A stretch of 5,242 bases of DNA, from positions 1 to 5,242 of the forward strand of contig CALINM010000211.1 of NCBI GenBank assembly GCA_938045315.1, read 5' to 3'. Source of the DNA: an uncultured bacterium (lineage in GTDB: Bacteria > CALINM01). The notes under the pieces are model-generated. The model saw only the letters and a list, made by a program, of their open reading frames with translations, made no database searches and was not told where the DNA came from. How positions within the stretch are numbered: the stretch's first letter is position 1; every line of letters starts with the position of its first letter. A program made the translations under genes and the position numbers. Positions 1,652 through 4,716 of this stretch are shown piece after piece.

Positions 1652-2287
1652 TCAAAACCCAATTTTCTTAAAAAAATTACTAATATATTCACTAACTTCT
1701 TCTGACTTGCCTTCTTCTAACTTTTCCATTACAGGATATTTAAAAAAATCATGCCATAATTTTTTATTATAATTTGAATCTTTAGATAAAGTCAATAAAT
1801 GCTCCCTGTACGGGATCAGAAGATTCAATAATTTTCTGTAATTTTCTGCTTTCCCCTCCATTTCTTCCCTGAATTTTTTTGCTATCAAGGGAAATTGACC
1901 CATAGTAGAAACTGAGATAATAAGACCATCATAATTAGAAAAAGAGGGCATTATACAATTACCCATTAGTCCTGGTTTTACACAGTTTACAAGTATTTTG
2001 TTCTCTTTACATAAATTTGCTATTTCTTTATTTAATCGCACATCGTTTGTTGCAACAAAAACTATAAACTTACCTTTAATATCCTCCTTATCAAAATATC
2101 TTCTATGCCAGATAATTTTCCCCTCATGAGCTAACTGTCTTATATAATCTGTAACCTCTGGTGAGACAACCTCAATTTTAGGAGAATAATCAATTATTGT
2201 TTCAATTTTCCTTTCAGCCACCAATCCCCCACCAACAACAAGGCAGGGCGCATTTTCAATATCTATAATTAGGGGTAAAAATTCCAT
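1652..2287 (-). CDS. Siroheme synthase N-domain homologue (precorrin-2 dehydrogenase/ferrochelatase, Met8/CysG-N type)
   Basis: This 211-residue protein matches the stand-alone Met8/CysG N-terminal module, which oxidises precorrin-2 to sirohydrochlorin with NAD+ and inserts Fe2+ to make siroheme. The NAD-binding signature VVGGGLVAERK is at 17-27, FVATND at 77-82 and IMPS at 112-115. A 61-residue tail continues past the CysG-like core with a Lys/Glu-rich helical look. By recalled alignment with Salmonella CysG it is essentially gap-free to about residue 140. At the position of catalytic Asp104 (Met8p Asp141) it has Lys104 in NCVKPG, and at CysG Ser128 it has Thr128. The fold is clear, but siroheme activity is uncertain. 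ATG (2287-2285) shares one base with the PilZ-gene TAA stop (TAATG). An AAAGGA lies about 12 nt upstream. It precedes ccsA and hemA, consistent with a tetrapyrrole role. Confidence 0.88.
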   Translation of the reverse strand: MEFLPLIIDIENAPCLVVGGGLVAERKIETIIDYSPKIEVVSPEVTDYIRQLAHEGKIIWHRRYFDKEDIKGKFIVFVATNDVRLNKEIANLCKENKILVNCVKPGLMGNCIMPSFSNYDGLIISVSTMGQFPLIAKKFREEMEGKAENYRKLLNLLIPYREHLLTLSKDSNYNKKLWHDFFKYPVMEKLEEGKSEEVSEYISNFFKKIGF

Positions 2288-3225
2288 TAAACAAATATTT
2301 CCTTTATTTTGTTTTCAAACATATATCTTACATTTTCATCTTTTTGTGTAATGAATAGAGATACTTTTCGTGGAAAATGCTCTTTTTTTAAAAAACCGTG
2401 GGTCGTATCAATTAATATTCTCGAAATAATATTGATGGGGAAAGATGTTTCAAAAAGAGTGAAAACAGTTATGAATACAGAGTTAAAAACCTGTTCAGAC
2501 GTTTTATTCAAATAATTTAAAATAGATGTTCTTAAAAATTCTTCTCCATGGGCATCAAAATAAGTGGGAGTAGCTACTATTAAAACATAATACATATCAT
2601 ACTCATCACAAATATATGGTAGTAAATACAAACCTATCGAAATTAAAGAATATTTATTAAATTCATAAAATTTTTTAATAGTACTATTAGATTTTTCAAT
2701 AAAACTTTTAGAAAAATTATCTAAAAGCTCTCCATCTTCTCCAACAAACAATACTAAACAATCAGACCTGATATCAGAAACGTTGAAATCGAAAATTTGT
2801 ATTCTCTCTCTTAAAGTATGATCCTTTGTTTCATAGACAAAAATTTTCTTTTTTAGTGCTTCTCCTATGAATTTACCAAGATACTCAATATTATAAATAT
2901 CCATATCTATAAATCTGACAACTATACCACCTAAATACTTTTCACTGGGAAACCTTGCCCAGATAACTTTTCCTGTGCATTCAATTGATTTATTTACAAG
3001 ATAAATAGATATATCAAAAATATCGCATAAGCTTAAAGGATTATCTGTCTTTATAAATGCACCACCTCTAATTATATTAAGGGTACTCATTTCATTTTTT
3101 TCCCCATCCTTTTTTACAATAACTGACAGGGAATGAAAAATTCTTGGGTCTCTTCTTTTGTCCCTATGAGCATTTATAATTATATTATTGTCTTTATGAT
3201 GCTGTAATGCAAGACAATTATTCAT
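2287..3225 (-). CDS. PilZ-domain protein with a C-terminal diverged macro-like domain
   Basis: This is a 312-residue soluble protein with no signal peptide or membrane helix. Residues about 22-124 read as a PilZ domain, the c-di-GMP-binding beta barrel: an Arg-rich KRRDPR start (R24 and R28 as RxxxR), then NIIRGG at 50-55 where DxSxxG is expected, then GKVIWARF and the GGIVVRF strand. Residues about 141-311 follow the strand/helix order of a macro domain: a NVSDI segment (148-152) like the GDIT strand, YYVLIVATP (212-220) like YVIHTVGP, the helix EEFLRTSILNYL (229-240), and a terminal strand-helix-strand with VSLFI then a helix. The NAAN, GGG and GxYG ligand loops are absent. ATG at 3225 overlaps the upstream stop as ATGA and is preferred; an in-frame TTG at 3249 would add 8 residues. 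Neither has a good Shine-Dalgarno. PilZ is well supported; the macro assignment is inference from pattern. Function unknown. Confidence 0.85.
   Translation of the reverse strand: MNNCLALQHHKDNNIIINAHRDKRRDPRIFHSLSVIVKKDGEKNEMSTLNIIRGGAFIKTDNPLSLCDIFDISIYLVNKSIECTGKVIWARFPSEKYLGGIVVRFIDMDIYNIEYLGKFIGEALKKKIFVYETKDHTLRERIQIFDFNVSDIRSDCLVLFVGEDGELLDNFSKSFIEKSNSTIKKFYEFNKYSLISIGLYLLPYICDEYDMYYVLIVATPTYFDAHGEEFLRTSILNYLNKTSEQVFNSVFITVFTLFETSFPINIISRILIDTTHGFLKKEHFPRKVSLFITQKDENVRYMFENKIKEIFV
2300..2305 (-). promoter_or_regulatory. Probable ribosome binding site (AAAGGA) for the Met8-like gene, long spacing
   Basis: AAAGGA lies within the last codons of the PilZ gene, about 12 nt before the Met8-like ATG at 2287. 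The spacing is longer than usual. The TAATG stop/start overlap suggests that re-initiation contributes to translation as well. Confidence 0.4.
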
Positions 3226-4151
3226 AAATAATGCTTTATTGCCGCACAAAGAAGGGGAAACATTATTTCGTGATGTCCAATAAAAGAAAATCCTTTCCCA
3301 CCATCAAGAGTAGGTCTTCTAACAACGTTAGTAAGGGGTCTGTAATGTTGGATAAAATCCATATTGATCGTTGTAATATTTTTAAGACTAAACCCCAAAT
3401 TTCTTACAAGCGATACCGCTTTTAAAAAAACCTCCGGTAAAATTACTGATGAACCTAAATTTAAATAAACTCCTCCTTCAAGCTTAGATACTAATTTAGA
3501 AAAAACAAGGAAATCCCTGTGAGTAGCAGTTCCAAAAGCATTACCATCAAATTCAGGATGCATATGAATAATATCAGTACCAATAGCTATATGAACTGTT
3601 ACAGGAACTTTAAATTTATAAGCCATGCATAATATACTTTTATCTAAATAGGGATAGTTTGACTCATCAAGTGCCTTACCAATTGCTTCACCACATCCAA
3701 TATCTCTGTTACTTTTTATAGCCTTTATTATAAATTCAGAGGTTTCCTTGACCATTCCAAAGGTACCTGAAGAGATTTCTTTAGCTACATCTTCTGAAGT
3801 ATGTCCAACCATTGCTATTTCTGTATCATGTATCGTACAGGCCCCATTCATTGCAACTGCATCAATTATGCCATTTTCCATCAGATCAATAATTAATGGA
3901 GCTAATCCTACCTTAATAACATGGGCCCCCATTCCCAATATAAACTTTTTGGAGGTTTTCTTTGCTTCAGCAATTATTCTTGCAGCTTCTTTAAGATCCC
4001 TGCCAGCCAGAATATTCGGAAGGCTTATAAGAAAATCTTCAAAACTACACCCCCTATCAACAGTTCTACAGAAATCTTTAATATTAACCTTGCTTTCTCT
4101 ATCATAAAGAGAGTATTGCTTTATATTTCTATTATCAAGATAGTCATACAT
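3222..4151 (-). CDS. Deoxyhypusine-synthase-like protein of unknown function
   Basis: This 309-residue protein resembles the deoxyhypusine synthase (DHS) family, NAD-dependent enzymes that in eukaryotes and archaea transfer the spermidine aminobutyl group to eIF5A; bacterial relatives include homospermidine-forming enzymes. Seen here (numbering from ATG 4151): a glycine-rich strand KKFILGMGAHVIKVGLAP near 69-85, then NGIIDAVAMNGACTIHD, an acidic IAIGTDIIHMHPEFDG block near 189-203, GVYLNLGSSV near 227-236, and a C-terminal FPLLCAAI like the FPLLVA end of DHS. K286 in DGGKG is a candidate for the catalytic lysine (WGK in DHS), but its spacing to FPLL is shorter than in human DHS, so equivalence is unproven. 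The ATG at 4151 has a GGAG 8 nt upstream and overlaps the gmhA end by 8 bp; an upstream ATG at 4172 lacks a ribosome site. The true substrate is unknown. Confidence 0.8.
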   Translation of the reverse strand: MYDYLDNRNIKQYSLYDRESKVNIKDFCRTVDRGCSFEDFLISLPNILAGRDLKEAARIIAEAKKTSKKFILGMGAHVIKVGLAPLIIDLMENGIIDAVAMNGACTIHDTEIAMVGHTSEDVAKEISSGTFGMVKETSEFIIKAIKSNRDIGCGEAIGKALDESNYPYLDKSILCMAYKFKVPVTVHIAIGTDIIHMHPEFDGNAFGTATHRDFLVFSKLVSKLEGGVYLNLGSSVILPEVFLKAVSLVRNLGFSLKNITTINMDFIQHYRPLTNVVRRPTLDGGKGFSFIGHHEIMFPLLCAAIKHYL

Positions 4152-4716
4152 TATCTTTTCTCCATAAATCATCTATAACTTCACAAATAACATGTTCTAT
4201 TAGAAGATGCACTTCCTGAATCCTTGGAGTATTCCTTGAAGGCACGTAAATATAATAATCACATAGCTTATTCATATCTTCGGTAAAATCTCCAGAAAGA
4301 CCAACTGTAATCATCTTTTTTTCCCTTGCCACTTCTAATGCTTTTAAAACATTCGGAGATTTACCTGATGTGGTAATACCTAAAAGCACATCTCTTTCAT
4401 TACCTAAAGCCATCACTTGTTTTGCAAAAACATCATAATAACTATAATCATTTGAAATGCTCGTAATAACTGATGTATCTGTTGTTAAAGCTATTGCTGG
4501 AAGGGGTGCTCTCTCAATCCTAAATCTATTCACAAACTCAGCTGCCATATGTTGGGCATCAGCAGCAGACCCACCATTACCACAAATTAATAACTTGCCA
4601 CCGTCTTTAAACGCTTTATATATAATGTGAGCTACGGCAGAGATCCTGCTAATTTCTTTATCTTTTATCTTATTAAGCAAAAAAATGGTCTCATCAAAAA
4701 TTACACCAATATCCAT
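4144..4716 (-). CDS. gmhA: Sedoheptulose-7-phosphate isomerase (phosphoheptose isomerase), SIS domain
   Basis: This 190-residue cytoplasmic SIS-fold enzyme converts sedoheptulose 7-phosphate to D-glycero-D-manno-heptose 7-phosphate, the first step of ADP-heptose synthesis for the LPS inner core. Length and motifs are typical: the phosphate-binding loop CGNGGSAADAQHMAAEF at 45-61, TSISNDYSY near 85-93, TTSGKSPNV at 115-123 and IQEVHLLIEH at 166-175. By recalled comparison with E. coli and Burkholderia GmhA, E60 and H175 are the catalytic pair, and H56, E60, Q167 and H175 would form the metal site; all are intact. The gene starts 14 bp after the NrdG2 stop and its end overlaps the DHS-like start by 8 bp. 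No other heptose-pathway gene (hldE, gmhB, waaF) is in the window. A different SIS sugar-phosphate substrate is possible but less likely given the intact motifs. Confidence 0.94.
   Translation of the reverse strand: MDIGVIFDETIFLLNKIKDKEISRISAVAHIIYKAFKDGGKLLICGNGGSAADAQHMAAEFVNRFRIERAPLPAIALTTDTSVITSISNDYSYYDVFAKQVMALGNERDVLLGITTSGKSPNVLKALEVAREKKMITVGLSGDFTEDMNKLCDYYIYVPSRNTPRIQEVHLLIEHVICEVIDDLWRKDNV
4160..4163 (-). promoter_or_regulatory. Ribosome binding site (GGAG) deciding the start of the DHS-like gene
   Basis: GGAG lies 8 nt before the ATG at 4151, inside the last codons of gmhA. The alternative ATG at 4172 has no comparable site, so this fixes the 309-residue form of the DHS-like protein over a 316-residue one. 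Confidence 0.7.

Follow-up and report, generated by a model that had tools for sequence, protein, structure and literature searches.

A PilZ protein encoded in the 5,242-nucleotide stretch of DNA analysed here (the window) carries a long C-terminal tail, which an initial annotation made from the sequence had read as a degenerate macro domain. This raises the question of whether the tail descends from macro domains and what such a domain could do behind a PilZ domain. Among c-di-GMP receptors, those with a PilZ domain are the best known, and the partners usually fused to them are YcgR N-terminal, receiver and GGDEF domains.

The PilZ-macro gene, its apparent operon and its PilZ domain

Open reading frames together with Pfam and NCBIfam matches outlined an apparent operon of seven genes on the minus strand of the window (Table 1). 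The PilZ-macro reading frame is real and continuous in the sequence, and its most probable start codon is the ATG at 3225-3223, which overlaps the TGA of the upstream GSU2086-family gene (ATGA). At its other end, the stop codon TAA shares a base with the start of the sirohaem gene downstream (TAATG). Residues are counted from the ATG at 3225, and the interval 2290-2805 of the initial annotation corresponds to residues 141-312.

Table 1. Genes of the apparent operon and features of the PilZ-macro protein, with positions in the window
Feature	Position (strand)	Basis or remark
Radical SAM activase (NrdG2-like)	minus strand	first-listed gene of the apparent operon
gmhA	minus strand	listed after the radical SAM activase and before the GSU2086-family gene
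GSU2086 family protein (deoxyhypusine synthase-like), upstream neighbour	3222..4172 (-)	NCBIfam NF052581, E=1e-124
PilZ-degenerate macro protein, 312 aa	2287..3225 (-)	ORF, sequence, syntenic orthologue
PilZ domain, about residues 21-121	2863..3165 (-)	Pfam PF07238 at residues 22-120, E=4.9e-11, 43.3 bits (cut-off 22.5)
RRDPR, residues 24-28	3156-3142	matches the N-terminal c-di-GMP motif RxxxR
NIIRGG, residues 50-55	3078-3061	Ile (ATT) in place of the [D/N]xSxxG Ser
Degenerate macro domain, about residues 137-312	2290..2817 (-)	orthologue Pfam match, profiles/HMMs, model compared with YmdB
Remnant of strand beta1 / NAAN / GGGV region, N148-V-S-D-I-R-S-D-C-L-V-L-F-V-G-E-D-G-E-L	2725..2784 (-)	alignment A5
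Former G-x-Y-G phosphate loop, now FTLFETSFP (255-263)	2437..2463 (-)	alignments A1 and A5
Precorrin-2 dehydrogenase / sirohaem synthase N-terminal-like, downstream neighbour	1652..2287 (-)	NCBIfam TIGR01470, E=1.6e-34
ccsB	minus strand	listed after the sirohaem synthase-like gene
hemA	minus strand	last-listed gene of the apparent operon; identity read from its own sequence

In the DhSxxG motif of PilZ domains, Asn is allowed in place of Asp. The [D/N]hSxxG motif is broken in the window copy, where NIIRGG has Ile for Ser, although membership in the PilZ family holds; the orthologue described below reads NISRGG and has the [D/N]xSxxG motif intact. The c-di-GMP motif is given as RxxxRhxh and DhSxxG (PMC8322970). 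Because the motif Ser is Ile, c-di-GMP binding by the window copy is uncertain and may be weak or lost. The change from Ser to Ile at window 3078-3061 could have arisen by a single base change.

On the strength of 12 GGDEF matches in the window's genome, c-di-GMP signalling was taken as present, and c-di-GMP is probably made there. A REC-PilZ protein is also encoded in this genome.

Macro ancestry of the tail and loss of the ADP-ribose loops

Behind the PilZ domain, about 175 residues follow the order of a macro domain. The three stretches singled out by the initial annotation were located where it had placed them, and they align column by column with canonical macros: YYVLIVATP (212-220, window 2592-2566) with KYVIHTVGP, LRTSILNYL (231-239) with LRSCYxNSL, and FTLFETSFP (255-263) with ISTGIYGFP.

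The macro signal of the window sequence alone is marginal, while it becomes firm through the orthologue from a second genome. The window protein by itself had no significant macro match in Pfam or NCBIfam, and its isolated tail gave a single NCBIfam match, to a macro protein, at E=0.07. The comparison with PF01661 proposed in the initial annotation was successful for the orthologue, whose 27.5 bits exceed the cut-off of 22 that the window protein itself does not reach. The orthologue also matched the NCBIfam O-acetyl-ADP-ribose deacetylase (E=7e-8). In the PDB, a profile built from the two tails retrieved YmdB (E=0.0035) as well as PARP14 macro 2 (E=3.2e-4). Of 386 genomes, 57 contained a match to this profile, the two with the fusion and 55 others, and the approximately 36 matches inspected were macro proteins. 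An HMM of 30 canonical macros scored the window tail at 33.1 bits and the orthologue tail at 65.6, against a best score of 7.9 in 15,000 shuffles, and hhalign of the two tails with these macros gave a probability of 97.8 (E=1.1e-12); both tests were somewhat favoured, the 30 macros having first been picked by the two-tail profile. A profile of 26 viral macros, which had been fetched with canonical macro seeds, gave 34.5 bits for the orthologue. The same profile gave 8.9 bits for the window tail, less than the best shuffle (10.6), and the case for its homology therefore depends on the orthologue. A match to Reprolysin_5 in the window protein (E=0.02-0.05, below the cut-off) was rejected as a chance match that found no support from the orthologue.

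The AlphaFold2 model of the full-length protein, built with two homologues only, was uninformative (pLDDT 38). The structure prediction and fold search suggested for the tail did return a macro fold: with the 26 viral macros added to the alignment, the tail model (m74fe8b9e29c3) reached a pLDDT of 79.7 and a pTM of 0.77, and its top match was E. coli YmdB (Z 18.8, 2.5 A, 163 residues; Foldseek, VIA-align). The macroH2A proteins (macroH2A1.2 and macroH2A2), Oceanobacillus MacroD and PARP14 came close after YmdB. Canonical macros in the input alignment favour a macro fold, so that the model adds to the sequence evidence but is no substitute for it. The tail is predicted to keep the alpha/beta/alpha macro fold. 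Pfam, NCBIfam, profile-profile comparison, PDB sequence matches and the fold match all bear out the proposed architecture, and we are highly confident that this is a PilZ domain followed by a degenerate macro domain of macro descent.

The canonical loops, stated to be missing, are indeed absent from the alignments. In alignment A5, a gap stands opposite NAAN of canonical macros, VGEDGELLDN takes the place of GGGGVDGAIH and TLFETSFP that of STGIYGFP, and the His of VIHTVGP is Ile in the window and Phe in the orthologue. The column of the GDIT Asp is occupied by Asn in both proteins (Asn148 in the window). D151, which had been taken for the retained Asp of this strand, lies three residues beyond that column and is Glu in the orthologue, and the assignment has to be withdrawn. 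The NAAN, GGG and GIYG loops and the GDIT Asp are absent from both orthologues.

Since the loops that hold the ADP-ribose phosphates and the distal ribose are missing, the tail is not expected to work as an ADP-ribose hydrolase or to read ADP-ribose in the normal way. Hydrolysis of ADP-ribose by the tail is very unlikely, and the domain has probably lost its ADP-ribose chemistry. A separate intact macro protein is encoded in the window's genome, indicating that the canonical function is covered elsewhere.

Distribution of the fusion

Among the matches listed, the full-length fusion was detected in only two of about 860 genomes, the window's genome (G000) and G002, which belongs to another genus (JAOAGA010000008.1, MAG SKW305). 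The genomes searched comprised 386 spread over the domain and about 480 from three other phyla (396, 82 and 8). In G002, the gene is also located between the GSU2086-family and sirohaem genes. The search for the same two-domain layout recommended in the initial annotation thus yielded one distinct further fusion. L021, a candidate for a third on a contig of 36,189 bases, proved to be the same record as G002, leaving two distinct fusions. No further fusion was found among the matches listed for genome contigs searched with the single protein, for plasmids, for viral contigs, for the 386 genomes and for the three other phyla, which were PilZ-only or macro-only, and none of six long open frames with macro matches had a recognisable PilZ domain.

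The PilZ-macro gene is precisely absent from G001, a genome of the same genus as the window's (L026:2134-2220). There, 87 bases separate the stop of the GSU2086-family gene from the start of the sirohaem gene, and these neighbours are 82-84% identical to those of the window. Because the more distant genus has the gene, its absence from G001 is most simply explained by loss, and absence from a same-genus relative indicates that the gene is dispensable. An ordinary macro protein was present in all three genomes. A sirtuin was found in G001 and G002, and the sirtuin search of G000 detected none.

The domain pairing is genuine and rare, and so far confined to one small lineage. A description of a PilZ-macro pairing was not found in the open-licence papers searched.

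Other arrangements of macro domains were observed in the course of the search. In G002, 6 bases separate an ordinary macro-domain gene from the PAS-GGDEF diguanylate cyclase gene upstream of it (L020:532-1977), which connects c-di-GMP with macro proteins for a second time in this lineage. A 325-aa frame on the plus strand of L055 (G118:C190:20600-25000) encodes a degenerate macro domain before a NUDIX domain (73.4 bits); the macro part is without NAAN and GGG loops and matched PF01661 with 26.8 bits over residues 54-110. In L057 (G361), a 357-aa frame on the minus strand encodes an intact macro domain, preceded by a stretch that, by eye only, is Smr/MutS2 C-terminal-like.

Candidate functions and relation to known systems

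Residues common to the two orthologues are located mainly in the second half of the tail, and its N-terminal half is the most divergent part. Identical positions comprise P220, D224, GEE (227-229), L231-R232, S234 and S249-V250-F251, followed by E259, FPIN (262-265), TT (274-275) and GFLKKE (277-282). The conserved motifs of the C-terminal half are PxxxDxxGEExLRxS, SVFxxxFxLxExxFPIN and TTxGFLKKExFP.

Overall, the best explanation is a two-domain c-di-GMP effector with a PilZ receptor and a pseudo-macro output module, to which we give roughly even chances. In such a protein c-di-GMP would bind the PilZ domain, and the binding would shift the pseudo-macro domain or alter how far it is exposed; the pseudo-macro domain would in turn bind or release a partner through its conserved C-terminal half. 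The pseudo-macro domain would then be a protein- or nucleic-acid-interaction module, and its role as an adaptor of this kind is put forward somewhat more tentatively. E. coli YmdB, the closest structure, is described as modulating RNase III and, separately from this, biofilm formation (PMC4222554), an example of a macro protein that works by way of a partner. Against the effector reading stand the broken PilZ motif of the window copy, the absence of the gene from G001, and the neighbouring genes (haem/sirohaem, gmhA), which point to no partner. If real, the pseudo-macro domain would be a new output module of PilZ proteins and would connect c-di-GMP with a fold familiar from NAD-linked signalling. 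Its importance is limited by its rarity, within one small lineage, and by its dispensability.

Alternatively, the tail may be a relic without a function of its own, a macro domain drifting to loss that serves at most as a folded spacer. The window protein and its orthologue are only 38% identical overall, compared with 61-78% for GmhA, the GSU2086-like protein, CcsB and HemA between the same two genomes, which would suit a relic; but identity of the tail (36%) is near that of the PilZ domain (42%), and the adjoining sirohaem gene is equally divergent (34%). The gene is also cleanly missing from G001 and the window copy has a damaged PilZ motif, yet both genera keep an intact reading frame and long identical motifs remain in the C-terminal half. 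A relic is considered doubtful.

The macro fold is a nucleotide-binding fold, and the pocket may have been rebuilt to bind a different nucleotide or an NAD-derived metabolite, so that the protein would integrate c-di-GMP with a second small molecule. The Asn that replaces the adenine-contacting Asp in both orthologues could still contact a base, and the former phosphate loop has Glu259 and FPIN unchanged between the two, but in two sequences only, conserved pocket residues are indistinguishable from shared ancestry. Furthermore, much of the pocket is formed by the N-terminal half, where divergence is greatest and the loops have become shorter. The analysis yielded no positive evidence of a second ligand, which the initial annotation had considered. 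A rebuilt pocket is unlikely, and the complete dual second-messenger integrator, in which a PilZ domain that receives c-di-GMP is fused to a macro pocket remade for some other nucleotide or a ligand derived from NAD, is quite improbable. Least of all is the likeness to macros expected to be due to chance or to another alpha/beta family: the window protein alone lacks a significant Pfam or NCBIfam macro match and the viral-macro profile scores its tail inside the shuffle range, but the orthologue exceeds the Pfam cut-off and, with that profile, every shuffle (34.5 bits against 10.6), and the PDB sequence matches and the fold match to YmdB argue against it.

The two-domain effector that we favour can be compared with three known systems. 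With the PilZ proteins of PF07238 (YcgR, DgrA; TIGR02266-like) it shares the PilZ family and RxxxR. The orthologue, like the known proteins, keeps [D/N]xSxxG in full, whereas the window copy has Ile for Ser, and the partner domain is macro-derived instead of a YcgR N-terminal, receiver or GGDEF domain. With the MacroD/YmdB type of PF01661 (O-acetyl-ADP-ribose deacetylases such as E. coli YmdB and Oceanobacillus MacroD), the tail has in common the strand and helix order, the predicted fold, a YVIHTVGP-like strand, an LRSCYxNSL-like helix and the FP after the former GxYG loop. It differs in that NAAN, GGG(V)DGAIH and GIYG are missing, the GDIT Asp is Asn, and the domain sits behind a PilZ domain. 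MacroH2A1.2 is an example of a macro domain that does not bind ADP-ribose. It and the tail are alike in the macro fold, predicted for the tail, and in an ADP-ribose site that is changed or lost; however, macroH2A1.2 has no c-di-GMP receptor domain, and in the tail the NAAN, GGG and GIYG loops are wholly gone.
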